Assembly (NCBI GenBank): GCA_029964075.1
Contig: CM057129.1
Location: 9,973,430-10,037,429, forward strand
DNA length: 64,000 bases
Direction of reading: 5' to 3'
From: Patiria pectinifera
Taxonomy: Eukaryota > Echinodermata > Asteroidea > Valvatida > Asterinidae
Shown here: in pieces, positions 13,113 to 54,595 of the stretch
How the letters are laid out: the number at the start of each line of letters is the position of its first letter
Numbering within the stretch: position 1 is the stretch's first letter
The notes under the pieces: generated by a model
What the model saw: the letters and a program-made list of their open reading frames with translations, nothing else
What the model was told of the DNA's origin: nothing
The model's database searches: none
Program-made: the position numbers and the translations under genes

Positions 13113-13443
13113 CTGAAAGGAAAACAATAAAGGGCCTAAAATTACAAACAAAATCACTACGTAAAATGAAGAATTTGTATACGAGACATAATTGGAAGGA
13201 ATCATTATTCAGAGAATATGTCGGCAGTGGCCTATCCGAGAGCAAGGGGATAACGTGTAAATAAAAAGTGGGTTCTTTTTATATCTGTTGCCATGGCAAC
13301 TACGGGCAATCCACACTTGTTAGTATTATTGTTTTGCCCGCCGATAAAAGTTTGGAAAGAAGACGGAATTACATTTTTTTTTATGGGGACGGCACGCCCT
13401 TTCCACGGTCATGATAGAATCAATTAAACATCATCACACCAAC

Positions 13444-27870: not shown

Positions 27871-28707
27871 TTATTCGGAGAAAAGGAGGAAGCCACTGAA
27901 TGAGGTGTAGTGATAGGTCGAAGAACCAGTCGCCCTACCGTACATGGTAAGATACACCGTATCTCCTCGCTGCAGGACCAGCACCGCGCTTCCAGACAAC
28001 TGACCACGTTGATTTGATTCACCATAGGTACTGATCACCTTGTAGTTATTTTTAACAAGATGGATGTTAAAAGTACCACTTTTGCTATAACTAAGACTAG
28101 AAAACGTAAATACGTAGGTGCCCGGCACACTACAGGTGAACGTGCCGGTCTCGAGATCGAAGCTGGTACCCGGCAGAAGCGTCTCGGCCTGCTGGAATGG
28201 CAAACGGGTTTCGTGACTCGTAGAGGTATCCGAGTGGCTCGTCCTCACAACGGTGAATGCAACCCGCTGGTTGGAGTCGTCTGGTGTCTCCCCTGGCTCA
28301 CCCTTCTGACCTTTGACACCAGTTTCCCCAGTTCCTCCAACAAAACCAGGTAGTCCTCTCGGACCTATCTTGCCGGGCAGACCAATCCCATCATCACCTT
28401 TAGACCCAGTGTTCCCAGGAGCTCCCCGCTCACCCATAGGTCCAATAGGCCCAACATCACCTTTGTGACCTTGCTGACCTGCATCGCCCTTTGACCCAGG
28501 ATGACCATACGGCCCCATCGGTCCTACTGGCCCAGGCAGACCTGGTATGCCGGGTATTGCAGCAGGTCCCTGGCAGCACTGCTGACACACCTGAGACGCA
28601 GGACCATCACCGTCCGAGGGAACCGGCCCAGTGACGGAAGCTCGGAGCTTGACAGAGTTACCCAGAAGGAGGGCGATTGACAGAATGGTGGCCACGCAGA
28701 TCTTCAT
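27871..28707 (-). CDS. Secreted C1q-like protein with collagen stalk, paralog 2 (unit B)
   Basis: A 278-residue paralog with the same layout as the unit A gene: signal peptide 1 to about 19, CQQCC at 41-45, collagen-like triplets from residue 53, C1q head over the last 130 residues ending FSGFLLFSE. It has one extra collagen triplet (HKGDVG region, after residue 80). In the head only one residue differs from paralog 1 in the first 55, but about 15 differ in the last 75. The ATG at 28707 directly follows an acceptor (TTTCTTTACAG), so the few upstream in-frame codons are taken as intronic. Stop codon and AATAAA overlap as in paralog 1. Expected to be a secreted oligomeric recognition protein; ligand unknown. 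Confidence 0.92.
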
Positions 28708-29085
28708 CTGTAAAGAAAACAAAATAGGGCCTATATTTAAAACTAAAAAAAAAACAATAACTAAATAAATAGTGATGTAACATAAACTGAAGAATTTGTC
28801 TGAGGGACATGTATGTATTTATAACATTTCTGAGGAATCGTTATTCAGAGAATGTGTTCGGAGTGATATGGCAGTTTCATTGTCATAAAATATAAGGAAA
28901 AGGTGGGTTTTTTTTTAAATCGGTTTCCATGGCAACGATGGAAAATCCACATAATTGGGCTGGTTATTACTTTTGCCCGCCAATAAAAGTCAGGGAAAGA
29001 GGCCGAATAACATCAGGTTTTTTTGTGGAGACGGCCTGCTCTTTCCAGGGTCATGATATAATTAATTAGACATCACCTCACCGAC

Positions 29086-32483: not shown

Positions 32484-32511
<28 letters not shown>
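32484..32511. repeat. GT microsatellite at the left border of the 16-kb insertion
   Basis: About 13 GT units directly after the left part of the split element. A second GT tract borders the right part at 48533-48553. Confidence 0.95.
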
Positions 32512-32514
<3 letters not shown>

Positions 32515-32892
32515 TCTTTCATACTCATTGAGGAGTTGTGCTCTTACACACACCAACGCTATGAGGAGTTTTTATTGTGTGACCAGTAATTTGAGGAGCT
32601 CCTCGAACTTTCATGTGCATTAAATCGATTCCAGAGGGCGCTGTTCATCAATTTTTCGTCACTTTAAAAAACTCCTCAAATTTACTAGAGTCAACATAAT
32701 TTTTCTCGAATTGAACGCTTACGCGCGAGCAGTGTGTGTTTTTCTGATGGACTCGTGTTGAATAGCGCCCTCAGGGAAACTCCTCGTTGTGGTCGTTTTA
32801 TTTCGCGCGCTTTCATGCATGCCAGATATCCGAGTTCTAGTGTAGCGGCCGGGAAGGCTGCTGAGCCGAGTGCTGTAAAAAAACAACGAAAA

Positions 32893-33013
32893 ATGGCACC
32901 AGTAAGACGAAAACAGCGGAAGAAAAAGGACCAACAGGAGGAAGCCCTGCAATATGTTAGATCAAGCAGCGATCGTGTTGGAGACTTCAGTGTCCGCGAC
33001 ACAAAACTAAAAG
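32893..33013 (+). CDS. Exon 1: basic N-terminus and start of SET domain
   Basis: Encodes a lysine/arginine-rich start (APVRRKQRKKKDQQEEALQY) and ends DTKLKG. The donor GTAAGG is consensus. Splicing to 38367 yields KLKGRGVFADRDF, matching the GKGRGV start of KMT5A-type SET domains, which supports both splice sites. The preceding 159 nt are also open from an ATG at 32734. The 5.35-kb intron is filled with MITEs, foldbacks and a minisatellite. Confidence 0.7.
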
Positions 33014-33239
33014 GTAAGGCCCTACACTACAGTGGAAAAGGATATTATAAACGGTAAACTCGCCCCTTACGCCATGCTTACTGACTCGCCCCTTACCGAC
33101 TCGCACTTTTGCAACTCGTCCCCTGGCCGACTTGCCCTTTGACCCTGGGGAGTTTGATGGCTATAGGGCCTAGCCTAGGCCTACAATGTATTGGTAAGAA
33201 TTCAAGAATGAGAATAGGCCTAGGCCTACCGGCATGACC

Positions 33240-33325
33240 GGTAGGCCAACTCGTACACGAGTCAACTCGTACGCAACCAACTCGCACGCAGGACGACGCG
33301 TATGTGAACCAACTCGTACGCATGA
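33240..33325. repeat. CAACTCGTACGC short tandem repeats, left arm
   Basis: Degenerate copies of CCAACTCGTACGCA. The reverse complement (CGTACGAGTTGGTTC) is repeated at 35228-35322, so the two arrays face each other 2 kb apart around two MITEs. A related GACTCGCCCCTTAC repeat precedes it at 33058-33130. Confidence 0.75.
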
Positions 33326-33336
33326 GTTAAAAAGTA

Positions 33337-33768
33337 GGTAATCCTTACTTTTAGGACACCTCTATTTTGTACGAGTTCTGTTCAAAATTGACTTTTGCAG
33401 ATGACTGTCCAGTACCAAAGTGACTTTTGCAGGCTAAAGAAGTCCTTTTTCTTCAGACAAACTCATGTTAGTTATAATTTTGAAAGCACTTTAAAAGAAA
33501 ATGTGACTTTCCTACCTTTTTGTGCAGTTTGCCATCTTGCTTTTTAAATTTATTTTCTGTTTGTCATCGTCGTCTTTAACCCCTCATAAATCAAAGCCCT
33601 GTGCTCTTTCTACAAAATCAAACCTGCTGATATTCAAGAGGTGTCATTGCCAAATGTTCAAATGTGTCAATAAATATCAGAATGTCACTTTTGAGTGTCA
33701 TTTAGTCAGCTGTTTTGGTGAGTCTTTTAACCTTATATAGGAAAGGGGTCCTAAAAGTAAGGATTACC
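33337..33768. mobile_element. 432-bp MITE with 8-bp target duplication
   Basis: Terminal inverted repeats begin GGTAATCCTTACTTTTAGGA at both ends (24-bp match with one change). Direct repeats AAAAAGTA flank it at 33329-33336 and 33769-33776. An 8-bp duplication fits hAT, Merlin or P-type elements; the GG start is compatible with Merlin. No coding capacity. Confidence 0.85.
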
Positions 33769-34021
33769 AAAAAGTAGCTAAATTGAGTAGGCCTACCCGC
33801 GGAAATTTTGATTTTATTTTATAAATGGTCTTTTGATTTGTGACTGGGCCTACATGTATGTTTCATTAAAGTTAATTGGTGGGAACTTTTTTTTATTTTG
33901 GGGAAATGCCTTCATGATTAATAATAATATGAATTAAATAGACCTAATAAATCTCTTTTTCAAATGATTGTTGGCTTATTTTGGGATGGAAGTTTATGTT
34001 TTGTAGCCTAGTAGTACTATA

Positions 34022-34767
34022 CGGTCCTAATAAAGCGCGTCAACAAGCGTCAACAAGTTTTAGTAGTCGTTAAGTGCGCGTCAACAAATTTTGTATAGGC
34101 CTTTGAACAATAAAAACAGCTTTATATGGTAGAAAAAGCAATAATGAACATCTTCTGCATATCAATTAAAGTTAAAATTACTTAAAAAGTGGTTTTCCAG
34201 CGCGAAATCTACAACGGATTTTTCGATTTAGTATTGGCCGCCATCTTGTTTGAGATCTACGTACTACGCATGCGTGGAGTGTACCATTCACGCATAGGGT
34301 TTCTTTATAGGAAATTAGGAAAACTATTTTTTTTTCAATTATAAATTATGCAAAACTTGGTCACGGTACTTGGCTAATTATTTGAAAAATATGCTTACCG
34401 ACACTCTTTACAATGTCTGCCAAAAAATCCCAATGCAAAAACCAAACGAGGTATCGCTAAGCGTATCGTATAAAGAAACCCCTATGCGTGAATGGTACAC
34501 TCCACGCATGCGTAGTATGTAGATCTCAAACAAGATGGCGGCCAATACTAAACCGAAAAACCCGTTTTAGATTTCGCGCTGGAAAACCACTTTTTAAGTA
34601 ATTTTAACTTTAATTGATATGCAGAAGATGTTCATTATTGCCTTTTCTACCATATAAAACTGTTTTTATTGTTCAAAGGCCTATACAAAGTTTGTTGACG
34701 CGCACCTAACGACTACTAAAACTTGTTGACGCTTGTTGACGCTTGTTGACGCGCTTTAGTAGAACCC
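34022..34767. mobile_element. 746-bp foldback MITE with 8-bp target duplication
   Basis: The two halves are inverted copies of about 300 bp each (for example GCGCGTCAACAAGCGTCAAC left, GTTGACGCTTGTTGACGC right). GTACTATA flanks it at 34014-34021 and 34768-34775. Each arm carries GCCGCCATCTTG, a perfect match to the YY1 motif, and TACGCATGCGT. The left end has two CGTCAACAAG units where the right has three. No coding capacity. Confidence 0.85.
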
Positions 34768-35227
34768 GTACTATAGGCCCAAAGTTGTATTTTTGGGGAT
34801 TAAAGATGTTGGCTTACTCTATAGTATCATGAGTATTGTGAAACCTCACGAGAATGGATGAACATTACATTGTATAGAGTACGGGGAAGCAATTTAGATT
34901 AATGAAAACTTTGGAAACGTTCACAACTTTTGTAAAGGAACTCACACAAGCTGTCGGTGTTTTCATGAAGGGAATTTCGTAAATCAAATTTTCCGACATC
35001 CCTTTTTCAGCTGAAATAAAATAGCCCTAACAGTCCTGAATCCTCCAATTTCCATATGATTTTGCACACCCCTTAGGGAGTTAAGGTTATGTGAATATGG
35101 TTTTGATTGTTTAAGGAAAACACTGTTCACAATTACAAAGAAATTTCAATCAAACGGAGAGAAGTCTGCTGTATTGGAAGAGTATAACTTAATTTTTTTC
35201 CCCTTAACTTTAACTTTTTGTTTGTTC

Positions 35228-35322
35228 CCGCGTACGAGTTGGTTCACATACGAGTTTGCATGTGTACAAGTTAACCAACCCGCATACGAGTTGTTCGCGT
35301 ACGAGTTGGTTCGCGTACGCGT
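35228..35322. repeat. Inverted partner of the 33240-33325 tandem repeats
   Basis: Several copies of GCGTACGAGTTGGTTC, the reverse complement of the repeat at 33240-33325. The stretch 34776-35227 between has no recognisable feature except a GTCCTGAATCCTCCA segment (35032) that recurs at 39097. Confidence 0.75.
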
Positions 35323-35433
35323 TGACCTGTCCCCAAATTCAATAGGCATGCAATTACAGACCAACTCAGACCCAGATTAACTTGGACCCAGAACAATTTT
35401 GGCCTACCCCTACACAGCTATAGGGTTAGACCT

Positions 35434-36071
35434 AGTCCGAGTAACTTGGATTCAAATATCGCCTGTTTAACGTTGTTAATGTTAAAGCATCAGACCTGCA
35501 TAATGTTTTCCTGGTGATAGTAGGGTCCGAGCCGATTGGCATATAATGTGGATTCTGGAATATTAAAAAATGACTAACAACCAAACACTTTACCAAGAAA
35601 ACATCTGTTTGCACAATCAAAACGACCACATAATTACTAAATACATCCCATGAGATACTATGTAGGCATTCATTGTTAAGACTGAGGTGGTAAGGTTTTC
35701 TTATGATCAGGATAAAAAGTGAAATTTATCGTTCAATTCCAAGAGCTCCCCTCGTGCAACATGCGATTGAATGATGTATTGCGATGCATTGTGGTTGGCC
35801 GGATACTCCCAGTTCATAAAATGGTCCCAACCGCAATGCCGTTATACAGTGCACGATGCATCGGTCGAGACCATTTTATGAACTGGAAGTATTAAACTGG
35901 TCATTTTGATGGTGAAATCGTATGGTTTTTTTGGGTAAAGTGTTTGGTTGTTAATCATTTTTTTTATATCGTGGAATCTGCATGATATTCCAATCAGCTC
36001 GGACCCTGCTTTTGCCAGAGACCACAACCGAATGTTGAAAAAGCAATACTTGGGTCCAAGTTACTCGGACC
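35434..36071. mobile_element. Foldback element, first copy
   Basis: Left arm starts AGTCCGAGTAACTTGGA and the right end is its inverted match TCCAAGTTACTCGGAC. Arms extend about 250 bp, with imperfect pairing. The second copy is 36223-36829. No coding capacity. Confidence 0.75.
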
Positions 36072-36222
36072 AGGTTTGCCCGAACTGAAACCCTATCAAT
36101 CGTTATCAATATGAATTAAACTACATTCACAAATCCATTCGATGGTACAGGTCACTTTCAGCCAATCCACTAAATGTTTTGCCCCTAAACACTGTCATGA
36201 CTGTTGAGTTACTGTCTCTGCT

Positions 36223-36829
36223 AGTCCGAGTACTTGGACCCAAATATCACATTTTCAACATTCGGTCGTGGTCTGGCCATAGTAGGGTCCAAGCTACACT
36301 CTTACGCTGTCAGACCTTTGCTCGAAATGAACAACAACCCAACACTTTGCCACAAAAACATCTGATTTCAGATTACACCATCAAAATGGCCTCAAAACTA
36401 GTAGGGGATTGATGACTAAGACTGAGTTGCTAAGGTTTACTTACATGTATGAACAGGTTGAACAATTAAAATTTACCGTTTAATTCAGAGAGTAGTGCAT
36501 TTTAAAATAATTTTATGGCTGCGACAACAATGTGATTTGGAGCTCTCTCAGAATTAAATGGTAAATTTCACTTTGCATCTGGATCGTTCGTAAACCTTAG
36601 CACCTCAGTCTTAATCATCAATCCTCTACTTGTGTCTCATGGGACGTTAGTAATTCTGTGGTTGTTTTGATGGTATGGTGAAATTGGATGTATTCTTGGC
36701 AAAGTGTCTGGTTGTTAGTCATTTTTTAATATTCCAGAATGTGCTGTTGGCAATTGGCTCGGACACTACTATCGCCAGACCACGACCGAATGTTAAAAAG
36801 CAAACATTTGGGTCCAAGTTACTTGGACT
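36223..36829. mobile_element. Foldback element, second copy
   Basis: Same family as 35434-36071: AGTCCGAGTACTTGGACCC left, GGGTCCAAGTTACTTGGACT right, with ACATTCGGTCGTGGTCTGGC paired in both arms. Two related copies in tandem suggest local duplication or nested targeting. Confidence 0.78.
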
Positions 36830-36849
36830 AATAGCTGACTAGGGGAAAT

Positions 36850-37345
36850 TTAGGCCCAGGCCCAGACGATCTTGGACCCAGACCAACTCAGACCTAGACC
36901 AACTTGGACCCAGACCAACTCAGAGCCTACATTTGTACGTGTACATGGTAGCCCAATACAGGCCCAGACAAATTCCAACCCAACAACTCAGATCCAGACC
37001 AACTCGGATCCAGACCAACTCGGATCCAGACCAACTCGGTTCCAGACCAACTCGGATCCAGACCAACTCGGATCCAGACCAACTCGGTTCCAGACCAACT
37101 CGGACCCAGACCAACTCGGACCCAGACCAACTCGGATCCAGACCAACTCAGACCTACATTTGTACGTGTACATGGTAGCCCAATACACGCCCAGACAAAT
37201 TCCAACCCAACAACTCGGACCCAGACCAACTCGGACCCAGACCAACTCGGATCCAGACCAACTCAGACCCAGACTGACTCAGACCTACATTTGTACGTGT
37301 ACATGGTAGCCCAATACACGCCCAGACCAATTTTGACCCAACCAC
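36850..37345. repeat. 16-bp minisatellite (GACCAACTCGGATCCA) with longer-period organisation
   Basis: About 20 copies of a 16-bp unit alternating GGATCCA, GGACCCA and GGTTCCA variants. They are interrupted three times (36926, 37153, 37287) by a GTACGTGTACATGGTAGCCC segment, giving a larger repeat period. The unit resembles the AACTTGGACCCA end of the adjoining foldback and may derive from it. Long open frames here are a by-product of the repeat. Confidence 0.9.
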
Positions 37346-37750
37346 TCTTACCTAGACCAACTCACGTGGTGGTAGCCCAACACAAACCTACCGGTACATG
37401 TAGCCCAATTCAGTTTAAATAATAGAACATACCGGTAGGCCTACATGTAATCTCTTCATGTACAATTTGGTAATTCTCATTACAGTAGCTTGCATTTATG
37501 CAGTTTGTTCGTCGTCTTTGGCACAAGTTAAACATGTTGAAAATCCATATTTTATCCTTCTTTAGGAAAACAACGATAACCGCCTAAATTTGATACAATT
37601 TGGAGCCAATGGCACCTTTGATTTGTACATGTGCACTATGCAAATATATTTTAGATGCATGTACAGCTTTAAAGGTATTATAACTTGGGGAAAGAATGTG
37701 ATTGTGTACAATGTACATGTAGGCTCTTAACTGTTAATGCTGGGAAAAAA

Positions 37751-37924
37751 TACGGGCAATTCACAATAGTGCGCCTCCAAGAGTTTGCAACGAGTTGGCC
37801 AATCACAATGCGCGAAATCAGTCGACCTTTTCCAAACGCACACATTGGGTCGACCGATTTTGCGCATTGTGATTGGCCAACGCGTTGCAAACTGTTGGAG
37901 GCGCGCTATTGTGAAACGACCGTA
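37751..37924. mobile_element. 174-bp hairpin MITE
   Basis: Nearly the whole element is two inverted arms: CACAATAGTGCGCCTCCAAG and TTGGCCAATCACAATGCGC left, their complements right. About 75-80 bp per arm. Contains an NF-Y-type CCAAT in each arm. Target duplication not clear. Confidence 0.75.
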
Positions 37925-38366
37925 TTGTGTTAGAATTTATGAATTCAAGAATAAATGTGAATGTGTAATTTATTAAGTTCAATCACTTTAACAACCTGCA
38001 GGCTTTGTTGTTACTTGAAATATTATTAGTCAGGTTGGCATCCGTTGGCATTCCCTTCTTCCATGTTGTTACCCGCCTTCGAATCCGGCCTGAGCCAACA
38101 TGGCCAATGTGCGGATTTGGTTATCAGTCCTCCAGTGATATCATGGGATTTTTGGTTTTTCCCAATATATTTTTCTAAGGTTAATAAAGCCAGCCTTTAA
38201 AACTCTACCGTCTTCTTATCCAGAAAGAATTAAAGATGGTACTTTCAACATGTATGAAAGGATAGACATTTGAATATTCAAGCACATGTGGATACAGTGA
38301 ACTTCTTGGACACACTATTTTTCTGTATTTCTTGGTTGTAATGTATTTCATAACTTCTGTTTACAG

Positions 38367-38520
38367 GGAGAGGGGTGTTTGCTGACAGAGATTTTGATGC
38401 AGGGGAGTTTCTCATGGAAAATGCTGGGGAGCTGATTTCCGCAGCAGAGGGCGAGCGCAGAGAGGAAACTACAGACAGTGTCTTCCGGTATTTCTTTACC
38501 AGCAGGGGCAAAGGTTACTG
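38367..38520 (+). CDS. Exon 2: SET domain, first part
   Basis: Acceptor TTTACAG then GGGRGV reading: GRGVFADRDFDAGEFLMENA, GELISAAEGERREE, VFRYFFTSRGKGY. This is the N-SET strand region of KMT5A-like enzymes. The donor is GTACGT at 38521; a stronger-looking GTAAGT lies 4 nt downstream but would put a stop right after the junction. Joining to 39365 recreates KGYCIDAT, matching YC-V-DAT of KMT5A. Confidence 0.82.
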
Positions 38521-38685
38521 GTACGTAAGTTGTGAAACTGTCATCAGTCAAATTTTGTAGTAATCGGTCATCATGTTTGTGGATTAAATTAATTTAGTCC
38601 TATAACTGAGCCAAACTAAGTGTTGCGATCTGTTAACTGGTTGACAGCAGTACTTTCTAATCTCTAGATAGTGCGGGAACCAACC

Positions 38686-38740
38686 AAAATACCCAGATGC
38701 GTAAAATAATAAAATATTATTGTATGCATCTGGGTATTTT
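38686..38740. repeat. Perfect short hairpin in intron 2
   Basis: AAAATACCCAGATGC is paired with GCATCTGGGTATTTT across an AT-rich loop. Could be a tiny MITE or a small structured RNA; no other support. Confidence 0.7.
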
Positions 38741-39364
38741 ATCTAAATTATTATTTCAGTCATCCGTGGGAATGCATACAATATGCTGAATAATAATAGA
38801 GAAAATAAGTCGTGCATATGCACCGTCGTTCTCAACTTTAGTCACAAAGAGCACTGGCCAACATCGGCTGTTGCTATGCGCATTGCTCAACCACTGCCCT
38901 TGCCTCCCAGCCATGTGCGACCGAAGCACGTGCTTCCACAGAAAAATCAGGGTGACACATACATGTAACGTAAAGTACGAGTGAAAAAACAGCCAGAAAA
39001 TTCCATTATAATGGAGGGAAAAAAATGTTTTTGCATTCTATAGCATTTTTGTGTAAAAAAGTTGATTCATTTTAAAAACCATGATTAACCCTAACAGTCC
39101 TGAATCCTCCAAAATCAATATATATAATTTTGCGCAGGCCTTAGGGAGATTAGGGTATGGTTGCTTTGCCTTTGACAATAGCCCCAAAATGCAGGGTAGA
39201 AAGGCCAATTACAGTAGACACCAAGGCCAAGGGCTCTTTTGTAAGGGCTTTTTATTTTTAATAAAAGTAAAAATTAGGAACAAAATAACAATTATTGCTC
39301 TTTTATTTTATGTATACAGTGTACATGTACATTGTTTTTCTTTTTTGGATTGTATTCATTGCAG

Positions 39365-39572
39365 TATTGATGCAACATCTGAACCAACAGAGGGGAAGCA
39401 ACTTGGGCGCTTAGTTAATCATGGTGATTTGAAGGAGGCCAATTCCAAGATGAAAGTCATCATGGATGGGGACAAACCAACACTCTGTCTGTTCTCCATT
39501 AAACCCATCCAGAAGGCAGAGGAAGTGTTATATGATTATGGGATCAACAAGTCTCCGTGGAAGACTGAAATG
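39365..39572 (+). CDS. Exon 3: SET domain core
   Basis: Encodes IDATSEPTEGKQLGRLVNHG, then a middle segment with PTLCLFSIKPIQKAEEVLYDYG and KSPWKTEM. LGRLxNH and YDYG are the cofactor and catalytic motifs of SET domains; the usual NHS is NHG here. KMT5A (SET8) mono-methylates histone H4 Lys20; whether this protein has that substrate is unknown. There is no Cys-rich post-SET, as in KMT5A. Acceptor CATTGCAG and donor GTATGA are both good, and the exon is free of lesions. Confidence 0.85.
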
Positions 39573-40195
39573 GTATGAACACGTAGTCTTACAATGTATG
39601 GGCATTAGGAAATAACATTGTGAGGGCCTGGTTGAGGCGAGGACCATTAAAATTGGGTTGCGTTCAACTCACATGAACGTTTGCAAACATTTGCCAAATT
39701 TTTATACACATCCTATAGAAAGCTGTTCATGTAGTTGGCAAACGTTGGTAAGTTAAACACACCCCAGGTCTGTTGTGACGCAGTGAAGACATGGTCGTTA
39801 CACTGTTTATTCCCTTTCGCCTAATAAATACCATTTTAATGAAATGAACAGTGATAATGCTAAAAATGTGTGACTTTTTTGTTAGTGCTTGTGTTTTGTT
39901 AGTGTTCAGGGACCATATTTCAGCTAAATACACGGTACCCTGTCTCTTCAATCTGTGTTTGTATTATTACTCACATGTTGCCAGAATCTGGCCAGTAATA
40001 CAATAGGATATGAGGCTGATATGCTGTGAAAATTGTCTGTACGCTTCAAATTTTCATAGCAGCTTTGAAAATTGCACACTGCACTTCCTTCCAAAATGTC
40101 TACATTGTGTTGACTGTCTTTGCGATTGAAAACTTGGATTTTTGACCTTATTACTTGTACTTTTGTAAGTTTTGTAACCTTCTTAGGACAAAACC

Positions 40196-40297
40196 AATAG
40201 AGGTTATGCGTTAAGGCGAAGTTAGAGGGCAAACCTTTGTATAAATTAAAATAACACACGAAACCCTCTAAGATGGCCGCAACGCATAACCTCTATT
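40196..40297. mobile_element. 102-bp MITE-like inverted repeat in intron 3
   Basis: Ends AATAGAGGTTATGCGTT and AACGCATAACCTCTATT are perfect inverted copies; the similarity continues imperfectly for about 35 bp. Contains AAGATGGCCGC near its right end. No clear target duplication. Confidence 0.7.
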
Positions 40298-40594
40298 AGC
40301 AACTATTGCAACAAAGCAAGATGTTTTAATGCTCTCTTGTCAGACTACACATGGTGTTTGAATGTTATATATTATATGGTACATACCTGCACAGTTGGAA
40401 CACTGTACTATTTTTTAATTGTCATTTTGTTATTAAGTTGGTTTTGGTATCAGTATGTGCCAAGTCCGATTCCTGTATGATGAGTCGGAACCCGAGTCAA
40501 CAGGTGAAGTCTTAGTTTCAGAACTTGCTTTGTCTTACACTTATTTCTACACTTGAACAATTATAAATGATTATTATTATTTTATTTTTTTCAG

Positions 40595-41914
40595 AATACA
40601 CCAGCTTCAAGTAGAAAACCCGAAGCCTCAAGTGAACCACCTGAGGCTTCTAGTGGACAACCTGTGGCTTTCAGCGGAACACCCGAGGCTTTCAGCGAAA
40701 CATCCGAGGCTTTCAGCGGAACACCTGAGGCTTTTAGCGGAGCACCCGAAGCCTCAAGTGGATCACCCGAAGCCTCAAGCGGAACAACCGAAGCCTCAAG
40801 CGGAACAACCGAAGTCTCAAGCGGAACAACCGAAGCCTCAAGCGGAACAACCGAAGTCTCAAGCGGAACAACCGAAGCCTCAAGCGGAACAACCGAAGCC
40901 TCAAGCGGAACAACCGAAGCCTCAAGCGGAACAACCGAAGCCTCAAGCGGAACAACTGAAGCCTCAAGCGGAACAACTGAAGCCTCAAGCGGAACACCCG
41001 AAGACTCAAGCGGAACACCCGAAGCCTCAAGCAGAACACCCGAAGCCTCAAGCGGAACACCTGAAGCCTCAAGCGGAACAACTGAAGCCTCAAGCGGAAC
41101 ACCCGATGCCTCAAGCGGAACAATCGAAGCCTCAAGCGGAACAACCGAAGCCTCAAGCGGAACAACCGAAGCCTCAAGCAGAACAACCGAAGTCTCAAGC
41201 GGAACACCCGAAGCCTCAAGCGGAACAACCGAAGCCTCAAGCAGAACACCCGAAGCCTCAAGCGGAACAACCGAAGCCTCAAGCGGTACAACCGAAGCCT
41301 CAAGCAGAACACCCGAAGCCTCAAGCAGAACACCCGAAGCCTCAAGCGGAACAACCGAAGCCTCAAGCAGAACACCCGAAGCCTCAAGCAGAACACCCGA
41401 AGCCTCAAGCGGAACAACCGAAGCCTCAAGCAGAACACCCGAAGCCTCAAGTGGAACACCGGAAGCCTCAAGCGGTACAACCGAAGCCTCAAGCGGAACA
41501 ACCGAAGCCTCAAGCGGAACACACGAAGCCTCAAGCGGAACATCCGTGGCATTCAGCTTACCACCGGAGGCTTTCAGCGGAACACCTGAGGTTTTCAGCG
41601 GAACACCCGAGGCTTTCAGCGGAACACCCGAGGTTTTCAGCGAAACACCCGAGGTTTTCAGCAGAACACCCGAGGCTGTCAGCGGAACACCCGAGGCTTT
41701 CAGCGGAACACCCGAGGCTGTCAGCGGAACTCCCGAGACTTTCAGCGGAATGCAACAGCTGTCTGTTGTCATAGAAACATCAGAGCATCTTCCTTGCACA
41801 TGTAATCCTGTTGATTTGTCAGAAATTGCACTGGACTCGGATGATTCATTGACATTTGCTGAGAGATTAGATGACAGGTTTATCCACCTCAATGGATCAA
41901 GAATGTCCACGTAG
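40595..41914 (+). CDS. Exon 4, intact part: heptad-repeat tail and stop
   Basis: Acceptor TTTTTTTCAG at 40585-40594. Frame continues from the SET exon as NTPASSRKPEASSE. About 55 seven-residue repeats follow, PEASSGT/TEASSGT in the middle and PEAFSGT at both ends, then a unique segment (MQQLSVVIETSEHLPCTCNP, LDSDDSLTFAERLDD) and a TAG at 41912. The repeat is Ser/Thr/Pro/Glu-rich, probably disordered and a possible phosphorylation or glycosylation platform. With exons 1-3 this gives 600 residues. The TAG is followed by 350 more in-frame codons, so it probably arose by mutation. Confidence 0.72.
   Translation, partial: NTPASSRKPEASSEPPEASSGQPVAFSGTPEAFSETSEAFSGTPEAFSGAPEASSGSPEASSGTTEASSGTTEVSSGTTEASSGTTEVSSGTTEASSGTTEASSGTTEASSGTTEASSGTTEASSGTTEASSGTPEDSSGTPEASSRTPEASSGTPEASSGTTEASSGTPDASSGTIEASSGTTEASSGTTEASSRTTEVSSGTPEASSGTTEASSRTPEASSGTTEASSGTTEASSRTPEASSRTPEASSGTTEASSRTPEASSRTPEASSGTTEASSRTPEASSGTPEASSGTTEASSGTTEASSGTHEASSGTSVAFSLPPEAFSGTPEVFSGTPEAFSGTPEVFSETPEVFSRTPEAVSGTPEAFSGTPEAVSGTPETFSGMQQLSVVIETSEHLPCTCNPVDLSEIALDSDDSLTFAERLDDRFIHLNGSRMST
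40600..41755. repeat. 21-bp coding minisatellite
   Basis: Unit GAAGCCTCAAGCGGAACAACC, about 55 copies, inside exon 4. Because 21 is divisible by three and the unit lacks stops, long frames also open in the other forward frames and on the minus strand; these are not genes. The two edges carry the older variant GAGGCTTTCAGCGGAACACCC. Confidence 0.95.
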
Positions 41915-43887
41915 GCAGCTGGAACTGCCCAAGTAGACATCTATAGAGACATCTCTAAACAAGTATCAGGACCACAGAACCCTAAGGTAAATTTGTTGGT
42001 TCATGTATCTGACAACACAGCTCAACTTGGTCTAGGTCCCCATGAGCCACTTGCTGGTAGTGGAAATGAATCTGATGCTGATGGGATGTCTGTCGAGGAT
42101 GAGGATGAATCCAGTGTGTATGAACCCTCAAGATGGAGTGAAGAGGATTCAGTGTCATCTGACAGCAGCGAGTTGTCAGACAATTTGGATGAATTTCCAC
42201 AAAAGAGGTCTTGTACAACCAAGGCTAAGGTTCCAAAATCTGGGATTGTGTCTTTTTCAAGTGAATCTGATTCTTCAGAATCAGCTGAACAAGGCACAAC
42301 TACCAGTAGTTCCAAAGTAACACCAGCCAGCACTTCTTGCGGTTCCAAGCGTAAGAACAAAGAGAATATATCACCTCGAAAAAGAGGGGAAAAGTGCAAA
42401 GGTAAACAGAAATCTGTTGTGCAAGAAAAATATGCTTGGGTAGTGTCCTCAGCAAACACTGCCAAAAAAGGACAAAGGGTGTGGGACAAAAGACATTACT
42501 GCGTGTTTTGTCTAAAACCTTACAAAAAGTTGTCGAAACATTGGGAGGACAAACATTCAGAAGAAAGTGAGGTCGGAAAAATATTTGCGCTTGAAAAAAA
42601 AACCAAAGAGAGAAGTCACCTCATTGCAAATTTGAGAAAAGCTGGTGACTACGAACATAATAAGAGAGTGTTGGCTGGTGAGGACAAAGGTGAGCTAATT
42701 GTTCATAAGCGGCCGAACTACGGTGACAAGTCTAAAACCAATGAGTACATGTTTTGTTCAGATTGCCGAGGCCTTTACAAGAAAAAGGCTCTCTACAGAC
42801 ATAAAAAAAAATGTCCTCAGCGTAAAATGTACAAAAAGGGTTCCAGACATATTAGAGCAGGGGCAGCCCTTCTGCCAATACCGCATGATGTCTCCAGTTG
42901 TCTAAAAGGTGTACTCAGTGGAATGGAGCAAGACCATATCACCATAGTTGCCAGAATGACCCCCTAATTCTGAAACTTGGTGAGCATTATGCTGCTGCTG
43001 CAGGGCATACTAATAATAGTAACCACTACATTGCTCAGAAGATGAGGGAAGCTTCACGTTTACTGTCTGCTGCACGTAGCCTCAATGAACGAATCTGTAC
43101 TGCAAAGGACTTAGTCCTTCCAAGAAACTTTGACATTGTTGTTGATGCTGCCTTGAAATGTTCAAGGTTTGATGACACAACATTTCAGTTTTCCACTCCA
43201 TCATTGGCAAGGAAACATGGCCACATACTTAATAGGTAAATAGTAGACGCTGAAGCCCTGAAAACGGGGGTTTTTGTTGATGATGGGCAAAGTGCAGCAG
43301 GCTTTAAACGACTCATGCAATCAGAATGGAGTACAAGAGTCTCAGGTCATGCATTAAGACAGGCGAGCGAGGCCAAATGGAATGAACCACAAAGGCTGCC
43401 GCTTACACAAGATATAATGAAATTGCACAAACACATGCGTGAAGAAGAGCACAGGCTAAAATCTCAAATACGACAGTCTGGAATTTCAGGGGAGAGTTTT
43501 ACAAAGTTAGCACAAGTAACACTGGCACAGCTAATTGTGTATAACAGAAGACGGCCAGGAGAAACACAGTTTCTGAAAGTGGAAACTTACCAAAAGAATG
43601 TAGCACGTGGAGTAGATGCTCATGGTGACGTTATGGAATCATTGTCCCTGTCAGAGAAACTGTCTATTGACAGGTTGTCCCTAGTGTATATACGAGGGAA
43701 ACGAAATAGAGGAGTGCCACTTCTTTTCACTCCAAAGATGAGAGAATCTGTTGATATCTTGGTTAGTTCACGAGAGCAAGTTGGGGTTCATCCCGAAAAT
43801 CCCTATGTTTTTGCTCGGATAAATGCAGATGCAATGGGTCCGCACAGGGGATGTGACTGTTTGCGGATGCTTGCAAAAAAAATGTAA
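41915..43887 (+). pseudogene. Zinc-knuckle and tyrosine-recombinase-like half of the gene, broken
   Basis: In frame with exon 4 after the TAG: an acidic, Ser-rich linker, a basic stretch, then C-x2-C-x9-H-x4-H (CVFCLKPY, about 42500) and C-x2-C-x11-H-x3-C (CSDCRGLY, about 42757). Near 42953 one nucleotide is lost; the next frame gives NDPLILKLGEHYAA. A TAA at 43237 sits inside the conserved core, then IVDAEALK, WNEPQRLPLTQDI, IVYNRRRPGET and VYIRGKRNRGVPLLFTPKM continue. The last resembles the GK-x-R-x-VPL beta-hairpin of tyrosine recombinases. The frame ends at 43885 in an A-run, before any H-x-x-R or catalytic Tyr. Confidence 0.7.
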
Positions 43888-45169
43888 AAAAAAAAAAAAT
43901 CCTAGCACACTGATTTTCTAGATTCAGTCAAGAACTGTGAAATATAAAAAAAAAACACCTGTAAGTGCATGTATGTATCATGTGCTGGGATGGTTTTGTT
44001 CATGTGTTCATTCAAGATACATGTAATTATAAATACATGTAATTATTAACAGACCTGTTATTTGTTGTGTTTTCTCCTTTTCACTCATCCCTTCAATCGA
44101 TCTTGATTTCTGTTTTTGACATCAGAAAAGTTGGAACCTACAGTGTATTCATTAATGTGTGTTTTAATTAGTTTATAAAAAAAAACATAATTAATTACTT
44201 TAATGTTCAAGAAATATGAGTTACCAAAGAAATTGAAAACGCTGTTTCCTAGTTACCCCAGAACTTGGAAGGAAATAATGACACATTTCAGTTTAATGTA
44301 CTTTAAAAATGGTTGTGATGATACATGACAAAACAGGGAATTATACATGTAGTTCCACATGTTGAGATGGTCATAGAATACAAGTTGAGTTTTATTTTGT
44401 ATAGTTATGTTAACTCACAAGAATGAGTGAATGAGTGAGTTTCAGTTTTAAGGCGAGTCTCGACACAAAACAAAATTAGTTGTATCATATTGAGGAGTTT
44501 TGACAGTGTGTTGCTAAAAGTGTCTTGAGTACAAAGTATCTGATTACTATGAGATCATTTTTTGCAAATTTTTGATTATGCAAAAATGCTACATGTATAT
44601 CCTTCTCTTATTCCCCTTAAGCATCACTACACTACATGTCAGTTGATTGCAACATTTTTGGACATTGTGACCAGGTTCATTGTGACCGTAATGATTTCAG
44701 TGCTGTGTTATGAAAGCTGTTGAAGATCATTTTTTTGTGAAAAGGGCTGCAGTCGGGATTAGAATCATCTGCCTGGTTATTAAATTGACGGATCATTCCA
44801 ATTGCAAAGTATTCTAGCTTTTTTTTCCACAGCATCCAGGATTTTACGCAGCTTGGTCACAGTGTTCAAAATGTTGTGATCAACTGACCATTGCGCAGTG
44901 TTGCGTGACTAAAATTAATTGAAACTTGTAAGGATTTTTCACGTTGGCAAGGATAGGGAGTATCTGCTGACTAAACAAATTTCAAAATATACCAGGCACA
45001 TGTATATTGTGGGTTTTGATACACAGGACAAAGTGAGGAGTTGTAGTTTTAATTGTTTTGATTCACAGGACAAAATGAGGAATCGTAGTTTTAACTGTTG
45101 ATTCACAGGACAAAATGAGGAGTTACAGTTTTTACTGTGTTATTATAGTTGGGGAGATTTGTGATGTGA

Positions 45170-45425
45170 TTGACTTGTATGATACAGGCATGGAATTTGG
45201 CACACAGTCATAGTATGTCATTAGAACTGGCTATGGAGCCATCAAAGATTTTTACTTTGAAAAATATAAGTATAATAGCATGAAATTTTCAAAATGGCTG
45301 CCATTGCATGTTATCCTACCCATATTTTTCAAACAACAAATCTGCGATGGCTCCATATCCAAATATCTTTCCCATGACATACTAGGACTGTGTGCCCAAT
45401 TCCATGCCTTTATCATAAAAGTGAA
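45170..45425. repeat. Hairpin inside the minisatellite, copy 1
   Basis: Left arm includes TTTGGCACACAGTC and GGCTATGGAGCCATC; right arm has the complements GATGGCTCCATATCC and GACTGTGTGCCCAA. Arms of about 85 bp, loop of about 85 bp. Repeated at 45983-46244. Confidence 0.8.
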
Positions 45426-45982
45426 CAGTTCACATAACATTATATTGAGCACCGATCTCCTCGACTAATACAAGGGACAAAATAAGGAGTTGTACATGTA
45501 GTAAACTGTGTTTATACACAAGACAAAATGAGGAGTTTAGTTTTAATTGTGTCTATACACAAGACAAAATGAGGAGTTTAGTTTTAATTGTGTCTATACA
45601 CAAGACAAAATGAGGAGTTTGGTTTTAATTGTGTCCATACACAAGACAAAATGAGGAGTTTGGTTTTAATTGTGTTGATTCACATGACGAATGAGGAGTT
45701 TAGTCCTATTTGTGTTCATAAACAAGACAAAATGAGGAGTTTAGTTTCAATTGTGTTCATACACAAGACAAAATGAGGAGTTTTATGTGTTAATACAAAA
45801 GACAAAATGAGGAGTTTAGAATTTAATTGTGTTTATACACAGGACAAAATGAGGAGTTTGGCTTTAGTTGTGTTCATACACAAGACAAAATGAGGAGTTT
45901 ATATTTAATTGTAATTTTACACAGGACAAAATGAGGAGTTACCGGTTTTACTGTGTTAATATAGTTGGGGAGATTTGTGGTG

Positions 45983-46244
45983 AGATTGACTTTTATGATA
46001 AAGGCACAGAATTTGGCACACAGTCGGAGTATGTCATTAGAAAGATAATTGGCTATGGAGCCATCAAAGATTTTTACTTTGAAAAAATATAAGTATAATA
46101 GCATGAAATTTTCAAAATGGCTGCCATTGCATGTTATCCTACCCATATTTTTCAAACAACAAATCTGCAATGGCTCCATAGCCAAATATCTTTCCCATGA
46201 CATACTAGGACTGTGTGCCCAATTCCATGCCTTTATCATAAAAG
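45983..46244. repeat. Hairpin inside the minisatellite, copy 2
   Basis: Near-identical to 45170-45425; here the arms pair better (GGCTATGGAGCCAT with ATGGCTCCATAGCC). Confidence 0.8.
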
Positions 46245-46749
46245 GGATCAGTTCACATAACATTATATTGAGCACCGATCTCCTCGACTAATACACGGGA
46301 CAAAATGAGTTGTAGTTTTAACTGTGTTGATTCACAGGGCGACATGAGGAGTTGAGTTTTAATTGTGTTTATACACAAAACAAAATGAGGAGTTTAGCTT
46401 TAATTGTGTTTATACACAAGACAAAATGAGGAGTTTGGCTTTGTGTTTATACACAAGACAAAATGAGGAGTTGAGTTTTAATTGTGTTTATACACAAGAC
46501 AAAATGAGGAGTTTAGTTTTAATTGTGTTTATACACACAACAAAATGAGGAGTTTAGCTTTAATTGTGTTTCACATACATGACAAAATGAGGAGTTGCAG
46601 TTGTACTTTTAATTGTGTTTACAAATCTGACAAAATGAGGAGTTATGGTATTTTGTGTTACATGCTTGTATTTATTCTACATACATGGAAGAATATTAGA
46701 CATGACTCTCGCTTATTTTGTATCCCAAAGGGCATGGGTGTTAGTTAAA

Positions 46750-46896
46750 ATGGTCGAGTTGTGTAAAGAATTTGGTATCGAAGGAGTATGTGGACAATAT
46801 CAACAAGATTACTGGATGATTTTATATGACGAGTTGCAGGTTGCCTTCCTTGAATTTAACATTGTCAGACGGGGATGGCCATGCAAAATTTACAAG
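46750..46896 (+). CDS. Possible exon of a small unrecognised gene
   Basis: Encodes MVELCKEFGIEGVCGQYQQD and continues with WMILYDELQVAFLEF and GWPCKIYK, ending at a GTTTGT donor. The frame is open for 35 codons upstream. Joining in phase 0 to 47218-47292 gives LDDLLTQLSASHTARLDVPV and a stop. The first part faintly recalls the RNA-binding-like gag domains of some transposons, but I do not recognise it with any confidence. It lies in the 16-kb insertion, downstream of the minisatellite. Confidence 0.25.
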
Positions 46897-47217
46897 GTTT
46901 GTTTAGAACTTTTATTTTTTACATGTACTATTTATGTTTAAATTGATCCTGCATGGTTACATTAAAAATCCACACATGTACTGTACATGTTAAGATAAAG
47001 TGCTGATTCCGAGGGTTTTTCTTTTTCGAATAACCCTTTTATAATTTATATTATATTGTTTATAATCATGAATCAATGGACATACAGTGATTTTTCCCTT
47101 AATGTTGACTTATTTTGCTATTGTATCTAGTTTGATTGTGCTGATTGAGGTTCTGTATACTAATTTTGACATTTAAGACAAAAGTAGCAGAAATTGTAAT
47201 TCCTTTTTCAAATATAG

Positions 47218-47292
47218 CTGGACGATTTGTTGACACAGTTGTCAGCTAGCCACACTGCCAGACTAGATGTACCTGTACATGCTCCAACTTGA
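47218..47292 (+). CDS. Possible terminal exon of the same small gene
   Basis: Preceded by a moderate acceptor (TTTTTCAAATATAG). 24 codons and TGA, ending VPVHAPT. Supported only by the splice phase with 46896. From 47293 to 47815 I see nothing recognisable. Confidence 0.22.
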   Translation: MDDLLTQLSASHTARLDVPVHAPT

Positions 47293-47814
47293 GAGTCATC
47301 TTGTTCCTTGTAGCGGAGCCAGTTCTTAGCCAGAGTTTCAATGGAGTCATACAAGTCCTGAACTTTTTCTCGTTTTTAACCCGTTACGATCAACAAAATG
47401 CAATACATCAGGTTGTACTAATTTGTTTACTGATGTTAAGATTAATAATGTTTTGATGTGCTTCACAGTTCTTGATTATGTCAATGGGATACAGATTTTT
47501 TTCTGAAGGCTTAGGCCACATGTGACTTCAGATTGGGGTCGGGAGTTCACTGCATTTATGAAACACATTTGTTCAATCATACTTGAGATGAATGCAACTG
47601 GTGTCCATGTACATGTACCAAGACTTCTGTAATAGCCTATTTGGAGTTGTGACAAAATGTGAACTTGGAATAAAGTTTTGTACTTTTAATGTTTTGGGAA
47701 AATAGTTTGTACCAGTTTTGAGCAGATATTTTGTAATTTCTCCGTTTTTAGAAAATAAATGTTTTCCTGTGTTTCACTGATAATTAAGTAACCAACTAAT
47801 CATGTATCACTAAC

Positions 47815-47954
47815 CGTTATTGTAACAACAATTGACTGAACGTGTAGTAATATATACTACACTCTGCCTATCACTACTTATAGATGATACCAGAGAATTT
47901 GATCAAGCGTTTTGTAGTAAATGCTACACTGTCGGTCATTTGTTGTTACATCGG
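47815..47954. mobile_element. Inverted-repeat element (TGTAACAACAA ends)
   Basis: Left TTGTAACAACAATTGACTGA and right TCATTTGTTGTTACATCGG are imperfect inverted copies, with GTGTAGTA / TACTACAC pairing inside. MITE-like. From 47955 to 48530 nothing else is recognisable apart from a short CACACTCACACAC stretch near 48420. Confidence 0.5.
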
Positions 47955-48532
47955 TTTGTGAGAGATAATCTTTCAAAGTTGTTTTTATGAAGGCTTTAAC
48001 TTCATTATAAAACGTACCCTTTTTCAATCATACATGAAGTGTACATTTTGACCATGCTTAAGGGTCTTTAAAATGTCCAAAACTGTTAGAGAATTAGAAT
48101 GACAAATGGTGTTCATGAGAAGTGATTATAAAATAAAACTTCAGTATTGGTTACATTTCAATAATTTTCACTGTGGTTTGTTTATGGAGTTATTTATATT
48201 TCACTTTGTCTAGAAAAATGAACTTCCTGCCATATAAACGTATTTTACATAAATATTGCCCCTTGTATCTGTTCTGACACCCCAGTACAATCACTTTTGA
48301 AGTTGTTTTTGGCCGTTAAGTCCAGAATTCAATCCCTTGTGAAATATGGTGCAGTAACAAATAAGTCACGTGATCCGTGCGGCTGTGTGTCATATTTCCT
48401 CCAGTGAGCATTTACATTCACACACACTCACACACCCAAGCTCACACCGTCATAATATTGGTACAGTTCGAGACCACCTCGAAATGTAGGTATTGTGCTT
48501 AGGGCCTCGAATGGTATGCGGAACAAGTATGG

Positions 48533-53372: not shown

Positions 53373-54209
53373 TTAGTTAATTGATTCCGGGTAAAGGAGG
53401 AAGCCACTGAATGAGGTGTAGCGATAGGTGGGATGACTATGCGCCTTACCGTACATGGTAAGATACACCGTGTCTCCACGCTGCAGAACCAGCACCGCGC
53501 TTCCAGACAACTGAACTCGTTGATTTGCTGCACAATAGGTGGTAGTCACCTTGTGGTTGTTTTTAACAAGATTGATGTCAAGGCTACCGCTGTTGATAAA
53601 CTTAAGAACAGAAAACGTAAATACGTAGGTGCCCGGCACACTACAGGTGAACGTGCCGGTCTCAAGATCGAAGCTGGTGCCCGGCAGAAGCGTCTCGGTC
53701 TGCTGGAAGGGCAAACGGGTGTCGTGACTCGAAGAGGCATCTGAGGGGCTCGTCCTCACCACGGTGAATGCCACCCGCTGATTGGAGTCGTCTGGTATCT
53801 CCCCTGGCTCACCCTTCTGACCTTTGACACCAGCCTGACCGGCTTCTCCAACTAGACCCGGTAGGCCTCTCGGACCTATCTTGCCGGGCAGACCAATCCC
53901 ATTGTCACCTTTAGACCCAGTGTTCCCAGGTGCTCCCCGATCACCCATATGGCCAATATGTCCAATATCACCTTTTTGACCTGCATCGCCCTTTGACCCC
54001 GACTGACCATACGGCCCCATTGGTCCTACCGGTCCAGGCAGACCTGGTATGCCGGGTATTGCAGCAGGTCCCTGGCAGCATTGTTGACACACCTGAGACG
54101 CAGGACCATCACCATCCGAGGGAACCGGCCCAGTTTCGGAAGCTTGGAGCTTGACAGAGTTACCCAGAAGGAGGGCGATTGACAGAATGATGGCCACGCA
54201 GATCCTCAT
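53373..54209 (-). CDS. Secreted C1q-like protein with collagen stalk, paralog 3 (unit C)
   Basis: A 278-residue paralog: signal peptide, CQQCC at 41-45, collagen triplets from 53 (GDRGAPG, with HIGHMG replacing PIGPMG), C1q head to the end. The C-terminus is extended to FSGFLLYPESIN, three residues past the others, because the ancestral stop is lost. The head has an extra Cys (TTYCAANQ, about residue 226) in the variable patch. ATG at 54209 follows the acceptor TTTCTTTACAG; 24 upstream in-frame codons are judged intronic. Most diverged of the three. Predicted secreted recognition molecule, ligand unknown. Confidence 0.92.
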   Translation of the reverse strand: MRICVAIILSIALLLGNSVKLQASETGPVPSDGDGPASQVCQQCCQGPAAIPGIPGLPGPVGPMGPYGQSGSKGDAGQKGDIGHIGHMGDRGAPGNTGSKGDNGIGLPGKIGPRGLPGLVGEAGQAGVKGQKGEPGEIPDDSNQRVAFTVVRTSPSDASSSHDTRLPFQQTETLLPGTSFDLETGTFTCSVPGTYVFTFSVLKFINSGSLDINLVKNNHKVTTTYCAANQRVQLSGSAVLVLQRGDTVYLTMYGKAHSHPTYRYTSFSGFLLYPESIN

Positions 54210-54595
54210 CTGTAAAGAAACCAATACAGGGCCTATATGTAAATCTAAAAACAAAATCAATAAGCAATAAGAAATAGGCATAATGATGTTACATACACTG
54301 AAGAGTTTGTCTTAGAGACACGTGTGACTTCATAATAATTTTGTGGAATCATTATTCAGAGAATGTGTACGGCGTGATGACAATGGCCTATCCGGTGGCA
54401 AGGGGCTATAACATTATATGAAAAGGTTTTTAATCGGTTTCCATGGCAACTGCGGGCAATCCACATTATTGGGCTTGTCATTATTTTTCGAAATTAGTTA
54501 GGAAAGGAGACCAAATTATATTAGATTTCTTTTTATGGGGACGGCGTGCCCTTTCAACTGTCATGACAGAATCAATTAAACATCACCATACCGAC

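Follow-up and report, generated by a model that had tools for sequence, protein, structure and literature searches.

A KMT5A-type SET domain in a putative tyrosine-recombinase element of the sea star Patiria pectinifera

In a 64,000-nucleotide stretch of the genome of the sea star Patiria pectinifera (hereafter the window; contig CM057129.1, C1:9973430-10037429; assembly GCA_029964075.1, 613.5 Mb in 1020 contigs), exons for a SET domain resembling that of the histone methyltransferase KMT5A lie upstream of two zinc fingers and a domain resembling the tyrosine recombinases. This raises the question of whether the two parts belong to one mobile element and, if so, what a SET domain would do there. 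A first-pass annotation, made from the letters of the window alone, had described positions 32893-43887 as an in-frame fusion of the two parts in a mobile-looking locus. We propose that the locus is probably a defective copy of a ~16-kb DNA transposon moved by a tyrosine-recombinase-like enzyme, and that it carries a KMT5A-type SET domain captured from the host. The observations that carry this reading are the copies and their ends, the TG-rich targets, a paralogous empty site, the linkage of SET and recombinase matches, relatives with a single reading frame, and a deletion common to four insertions.

Copies, ends and target sites

Genome searches returned 106 matches to a 215-amino-acid piece of the recombinase-like domain and 55 matches to the 69-amino-acid SET exon 3. 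High-identity matches to both occur together at ten places, on C1 (the window), C3, C7 (two), C12, C20 (two), C21, C22 and C166, and across these copies the SET exon is 97–100% and the recombinase piece 88–100% identical. We compared 40 kb around five copies, plus the element ends of four more. As judged by the start and end of identity among the aligned copies, the unit containing the SET exons is a ~16-kb element at window positions ~32507-48529, and the interval 32893-43887 originally claimed for it is too small. Its ends are as follows:

32507..32534, + strand: left end of the element, TGTG then TTTGTCTTTCATACTC (alignment of ten copies)
48500..48529, + strand: right end of the element, ...GGTATGCGGAACAAGTA, then TG-rich DNA (read in 10 of 10 copies)

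The left-end pattern, TGTG directly followed by TTTGTCTTTCATACTC, occurs genome-wide at ten places (nine exact, one with one mismatch), which are the same ten copies, and the sequence to the left of TGTG differs from copy to copy. The terminal letters are AACAAGTATG at the right end and TTTGTC at the left end. The two ends carry short arms, GTATGCGGAACAAG on the right and TTTGTCTTTCATAC on the left, the left arm being an imperfect reverse complement of the right, with a TATG/TG-rich core.

All ten copies lie in TG-rich DNA, and their flanks outside the ends otherwise differ. The 30 nucleotides left of TGTG hold a mean of 6.2 TG steps in the copies versus 2.3 at 622 further TGTG sites in the window, an enrichment equalled by 0 of 20000 resamples; the copy C20a is the sole one of the ten without TG in these 30 bases. 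Judged by eye, several flanks fall at TG-rich spots of dispersed repeats: the window with C20b, as well as C12, C7a and the C15 copy of a second family described below. The left flanks of the window and C20b copies are 78% alike over 59 bases and the elements are 98.6% alike over 3.65 kb, and we therefore take the two as separate insertions.

When joined, the window flanks match seven other places (six on C1, one on a small contig) at 85–95% over essentially the whole query, and partial matches elsewhere place the flank in a dispersed repeat. At the best empty site, ...AAAATCAAAAAAG is followed by a TG run and then GGGGGTGAGGCTGGTACC..., and the window has these same flanks surrounding the element. 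This corresponds to a clean insertion into (TG)n, with GGGGG directly after the TG run and no target duplication outside it. The empty sites are paralogous, not alleles, and lie in a region with duplicated collagen-C1q genes. Ten near-identical copies at separate sites, together with a paralogous empty site, bear out the earlier impression of a mobile locus. The window itself holds three collagen-C1q genes (12285-13208, 27871-28818 and 53373-54311 (-)), and the duplicated C1 region elsewhere supplies the empty site.

The SET exons and their linkage to the recombinase-like domain

The coding part of the window copy comprises the following segments, all on the + strand:

32893..33013, +: exon 1, with ATG, basic N-terminal part and start of SET (splice phases, translation; intact in 6 of 6 copies read)
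38367..38520, +: exon 2, first half of SET (phases, structure and Pfam matches)
39365..39572, +: exon 3, second half of SET with IDAT, GRLVNH and LYDYG (phases, structure and Pfam matches; 55 related genome places)
40595..41914, +: first part of exon 4, ~54.6 heptads in a 21-bp tandem array, ending at TAG 41912-41914
41915..42967, +: second frame with two zinc fingers (C2H2 ~42500-42556; C2HC ~42755-42814), with loss of the frame in the interval 42889-42967
42889..43239, +: continuation in another frame, closed by TAA 43237-43239 (damage common to four sister copies; uninterrupted in four copies)
43240..43887, +: recombinase-like domain, first half only, with a box-I-like R-P-G-E near 43552 and a GKRxRxVPLL hairpin near 43696

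Spliced in phase, exons 1–3 give a 161-amino-acid KMT5A-like SET domain that matches PF00856 (E=1.3e-18), and the top solved structure for this product is KMT5A/SETD8 (E=2.7e-18, best of 74 solved-structure sequences). The NH and YDYG motifs, which in SET domains contribute S-adenosylmethionine (SAM)-binding or catalytic residues, are kept in the window exons and in the window's subfamily (GRLVNH, LYDYG), and the SET frame is open in all six near-identical copies read.

The splice phases agree with the first-pass annotation, and exon 3 joins exon 4 (40595-) in frame. Its single frame from SET through heptads to the Cys/His motifs stands as regards this junction, the ~54.6 heptads and both motifs, and fails at an in-frame TAG (41912-41914) that closes the SET-heptad frame before the zinc fingers; the finger frame resumes directly after it in the same register. 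All nine copies read, of the ten in the window's subfamily, have this TAG, so it belongs to the family, and damage of the window copy was rejected as its cause. A short in-frame GT-AG intron removing the TAG can be drawn by eye and is not claimed, such pairs being common by chance. Further downstream, where a single frameshift had been described, the window copy has a frame change (42889-42967) plus the TAA at 43237-43239, and the GKRxRxVPLL stretch is present as described. After 43888, ~0.7 kb that is present in five other copies read has been deleted, and the catalytic R-H-Y part is absent from the window copy because of this deletion. The heptad array varies from ~41 to 105 units among six copies with the frame kept (window 40603-41750, loci L009-L028); its Pfam label, the grass antifreeze roll (PF21300), was taken as a low-complexity match.

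The linkage of the two parts extends well beyond the near-identical copies. A same-strand downstream recombinase match lies within 10 kb of 31 of the 55 SET-exon matches and within 40 kb of 43 of them (82 of the 106 recombinase rows were used in this count). Three wrong arrangements used as controls gave no case within 10 kb; at the 40-kb limit they gave 4, 1 and 0. In some of these places the linked recombinase reaches only 22–39% identity to that of the window. Twelve SET matches have no recombinase match within 40 kb, and two of these are host KMT5A-like copies on C19.

The first-pass annotation had proposed a search for another genome copy with SET and recombinase in one frame, and such a copy exists. 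The locus L029 (C20:15718000-15724500) holds one stop-free frame of 1359 amino acids that covers SET exon 3, a linker rich in repeats, the fingers and the recombinase as far as its tyrosine. A second locus, L030, provides a partial case: one frame of 1310 amino acids joins SET exon 3 to the recombinase's first half, with the remainder in another frame. These are the only pairs for which both matches were reported in one open frame; in the others the matches differ in frame, or introns or damage split them. SET and fingers are separated by a repeat-rich linker in all three lineages read, and in L029 the YDYG motif has become CNYG. Taken together, these findings give good support to a single mobile unit that contains both a SET and a recombinase-like part.

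Aligned with human KMT5A, the host KMT5A-like gene on C19 falls into two matching pieces divided near query residue 57, which is about where element exons 2 and 3 meet. As the host gene splits at about the same residue, this suggests that the SET domain was captured as genomic DNA with its intron. The host copies are closer matches to human KMT5A than the element SETs are. There are two such host copies, in opposite orientation and 1.3 Mb apart (C19:2909339-2910538 (+) and 4221635-4223346 (-)), which may represent either a duplication or an assembly effect.

Four copies with intact frames have pairwise synonymous divergence (dS) values of 0.003-0.017, which point to recent movement, and non-synonymous divergence (dN) is below dS in all six pairs. 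The frameshift and TAA are common to the copies in the window, C22, C20b, C21 and C166. The ~0.7-kb deletion is common to the first four of these, and C166 retains that stretch. In the tenth copy (C7b) the recombinase match carries a stop of its own. The four insertions with the same deletion stand at different sites, so it appears that intact copies acted in trans to mobilize those whose recombinase is broken.

The recombinase-like domain and a second family

An intact second open reading frame (ORF2) of 900-901 amino acids is found in 4 of the 10 copies; it has internal Met codons of its own and encodes the C2H2 and C2HC fingers followed by the full recombinase-like domain. All eight ligands of the two fingers are common to the copy L005 and to L029. 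In the aligned sequences of L029, L030 and the second family, where these reach, the following residues are shared: R (NRRRxGET), K (GKR), R (LRKH / MRKY / VRKY), H (LGH / MGH) and Y. Their order is identical to that in Escherichia coli XerD: R122, K171, R246, H272 and Y281 in L005, and R148, K172, R247, H270 and Y279 in XerD. The spacing is in part the same, with K-R 75 in both, H-Y 9 in both and R-H 26 in L005 versus 23 in XerD. A signature built from these residues is found in 4 of 4 intact copies and in L029, and in 0 of 6000 shuffled proteins, the signature having been written after the alignment was seen. The window copy itself keeps only the first R and the K. A tyrosine recombinase is at present the best reading of the domain.

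Some database matches were set aside. A single-piece search of the PDB gave three chains, the best being the repetitive k-cTRP5 (E 0.0028), which we took as chance, and nothing was obtained with the alignment as query. The NCBIfam matches (best E 0.0023) are to unrelated families and lie far below those families' own cut-offs. Scans of viral contigs found no relative. The genome also holds many canonical Crypton-type recombinase loci (54 DUF3504 places) apart from the SET elements.

A second family, of which two copies (C15 and C21) were read, has a SET domain 52% identical to that of the window and a recombinase 38-39% identical over the second half and 29% over the first. Its ends are sharp: TGCTCTCACGCAGGGC on the left, and on the right CCTTCGTGTAAGTATG, then TG-rich DNA. 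This right end reads ..AAGTATG before the TG-rich DNA, as in the window's family, and is found at five places, which are the family's SET-recombinase copies on C8, C15, C19, C20 and C21; the right flanks are TG-rich in all five. In both families the right inner end imperfectly reverse-complements the left inner end, and the offsets from the TG core (2 and 0 bases) are equal in the two families. The arms are imperfect and 12-14 bp long. Considered jointly in the two families, 16 of 24 arm positions match, a value reached by 25 of 50000 shuffles. Among the 15 right ends read, TATG is present in 13 and TATGGG in 7.

Some further features of the element and its surroundings were noted. Tandem arrays of a 40-42 bp unit (..TGTGTTTATACACAAGACAAAATGAGGAGTT..) lie within the element at window positions 45013-46602, and also in other copies. 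The TGAGGAGTT of this unit resembles TTGAGGAGTTG just inside the left end, and on account of this resemblance the array may be a candidate binding-site array. Intron 1 contains an insert present only in the window copy:

33338..33768, strand not assigned: insert of ~431 bp, flanked by 8- or 9-bp repeats (AAAAAGTAG) and carrying inverted ends (GTAATCCTTACTTTTAGGAC / GTCCTAAAAGTAAGGATTAC)

The insert is absent from the C12 copy, the same gap appears in the printed alignments for C20a, C12, C7a and C21, and with its inverted ends and short duplication it resembles a small non-autonomous DNA transposon that sits inside the element. Outside the element, the window has a reverse-transcriptase fragment (PF00078, E=7.1e-13) at 15131-15496 (+). 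Contig C7 (44.9 Mb, ~7% of the assembly) holds 41 of 82 typed recombinase places and 24 of 55 SET places, many of them diverged, and may act as a sink for repeats or represent an unusual chromosome.

Proposed mechanism, alternatives and known systems

In the mechanism that we propose, the recombinase would pair the two ends, whose arms flank the TATG/TG-rich core, and the element would be excised as a circle across this core. The circle would then integrate by one crossover into a TG-rich target, and such a single-crossover integration would account for the lack of target duplication outside the TG run. DNA binding would fall to the two zinc fingers, and the SET part could anchor the complex to nucleosomes. 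In copies that keep the relevant residues, the SET domain might methylate histone H4K20, or a comparable lysine, at the ends or at the target. The last SET exon and the recombinase would be read in one frame in some relatives; in the window's subfamily, they would form two proteins across the TAG or be joined via splicing or read-through, and given the conserved TAG a fused SET-recombinase protein is no more than a possibility there. The circle intermediate, the enzyme chemistry, histone methylation and a benefit to the element are steps that we infer. A chromatin-modifying role of the SET domain in integration, which the first-pass annotation had suggested for the element's own integration sites, is therefore advanced only tentatively. 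It is likewise conceivable, though less than even in our estimation, that these elements represent an ancient animal DNA-transposon family with a KMT5A-type SET built into the recombinase machinery, as a single polypeptide in some lineages, which would mark or grip nucleosomes at TG-rich targets or at the element's own ends while it integrates.

Several observations weigh against parts of this account. At the DNA level, two of the three empty sites read carry G-rich tracts and not TG, the left flank of the family-2 copy on C21 is not TG-rich, and the arms of the window's family alone, with free offsets, pair weakly (3046 of 20000 shuffles). In the coding part, the TAG is conserved, no RNA structure favoring read-through was supported after it (z -0.23), and the NH histidine is replaced in L029 (NQ) and L030 (ND), which makes methylation doubtful in these two. 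In the recombinase part, the distance between the first R and K is 49 in L005 versus 24 in XerD, and all aligned members have T where box II has its histidine. Profiles from Pfam, PHROGs, NCBIfam and the PDB give no recombinase match for this part; the 54 places found with DUF3504 have no overlap with the SET-element loci (compared by eye), and a genome search with PF00589 matches other loci and none of these (146 of 242 candidates scored; by eye). When aligned by hhalign to a profile of 19 XerD sequences, the motifs are in register, with a marginal score of 21.9; 7 column shuffles and 19 block shuffles, out of 150 each, did as well. The recombinase assignment made in the first-pass annotation thus gains from the residue order, the partial spacing and the seating in the target, and receives no help from profile libraries and little from the XerD comparison.

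With respect to the SET domain, it is somewhat unlikely that it is a captured host fragment, idle in the movement of a recombinase transposon or acting as a tether without methyltransferase activity. The changes in L029 (NQ, CNYG) and L030 (ND) indicate that some lineages have lost residues for SAM binding or catalysis, and a TAG separates SET from recombinase in the window's subfamily; yet the SET stays with recombinases only 22-39% identical to the window's, and a frame open in 6 of 6 near-identical copies is not that of a mere passenger, which should decay. The TAG in all nine copies read and the internal Met codons of ORF2 would also fit two neighboring genes on one element, with the SET-heptad and finger-recombinase proteins separate in all families and the single frames a chance run-on. 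We regard this arrangement as unlikely, as 1359 open codons in L029 and 1310 in L030 are not expected by chance.

The absence of library matches, the marginal hhalign score, the R-K distance and the box-II T could alternatively mean that the recombinase-like domain is an unrelated transposase-type or DNA-binding domain. This appears quite improbable in view of the collinear R-K-R-H-Y with K-R and H-Y distances the same as in XerD, the signature in the four intact copies and L029 that no shuffled protein reproduced (although defined post-alignment), and the inverted arms that surround a short core with no target duplication outside the TG run. Spread of an ordinary, immobile host gene family by segmental duplication is barely credible, although the window does sit in a cluster of duplicated collagen-C1q genes: the ends are sharp, the flanks of the ten copies differ outside TG-rich DNA, and the duplicated cluster itself holds empty versions of the site. 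Some copies do share a dispersed repeat, yet the flanks of the window and C20b are less alike (78%) than the elements are (98.6%). A simple host pseudogene or segmental duplicate was rejected on the basis of the empty sites and sharp ends. We therefore favor the transposon with a tyrosine-recombinase-like enzyme.

Transposons that carry a chromatin modifier offer a direct route to asking how mobile DNA handles nucleosomes and silencing. In a single genome, the transposon proposed here is represented by intact copies that moved recently and by defective ones apparently mobilized in trans; its ends are defined, its target is TG-rich, and an empty site occurs naturally. The genome also provides older relatives with part of the methyltransferase-type domain and the recombinase in one reading frame. 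Whether SET aims or protects integration becomes testable. Annotation based on Pfam, PHROGs or NCBIfam would miss this recombinase family, since the models searched do not recognize it. Fish and invertebrate databases hold many "KMT5A-like" proteins, and relatives may be annotated there but unexplained. A 2022 paper on chromatin evolution reportedly treats the capture of chromatin domains by transposons.

A SET-bearing tyrosine-recombinase element was not found in the literature searched (titles and the starts of abstracts, with Repbase and most subscription papers outside the scope), nor in passages of PMC3212892, PMC12062965, PMC5753468, PMC4157794 and PMC12153100. The closest parallel in the mode of movement is with the Cryptons. 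According to passages of Kojima and Jurka 2011 (PMC3212892), tyrosine recombinases typically use 11-13 bp inverted repeats around 6-8 bp, and most CryptonS elements have TATGG termini. The likeness to Cryptons as described in these passages comprises: (i) a recombinase-type DNA element without recognized reverse transcriptase or classic terminal inverted repeats; (ii) a short repeat at both ends (here TG-rich), with ~12 bp arms around a short core and no target duplication; (iii) TATG in 13 of 15 right ends, compared with TATGG in CryptonS; and (iv) defective derivatives that moved. In contrast to Cryptons, the element described here is ~16 kb long, has introns, a KMT5A-type SET domain and two zinc fingers, and its recombinase is missed by the Crypton domain model DUF3504; the terms "SET domain" and "methyltransferase" are absent from the main text of the Crypton paper.

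DIRS and other tyrosine-recombinase retrotransposons share with it a tyrosine recombinase, zinc fingers in some members and, in DIRS, an extra methyltransferase-type domain, according to passages of PMC4157794. There, however, the domain is a putative methyltransferase (MT) domain, and these passages make no mention of SET. Reverse transcriptase, the mark of DIRS and Ngaro elements, gave no Pfam match in the element frames scanned (five window-exon proteins, five frames of relatives and eight further window frames of 83-137 amino acids).

KMT5A (SETD8, PR-Set7) is the closest solved SET domain, and its host copies on C19 have an exon boundary at about the same place. These differ from the element in having no recombinase match within 40 kb downstream, and some element SETs differ from KMT5A in lacking the NH histidine. 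SETMAR likewise joins a SET histone methyltransferase to a transposon enzyme; in the account given in passages of PMC12062965, it is a gene of the host that acquired a mariner transposase. Here, unlike in SETMAR, the mobile element itself bears the SET domain, is present in many copies and has a recombinase of another kind.

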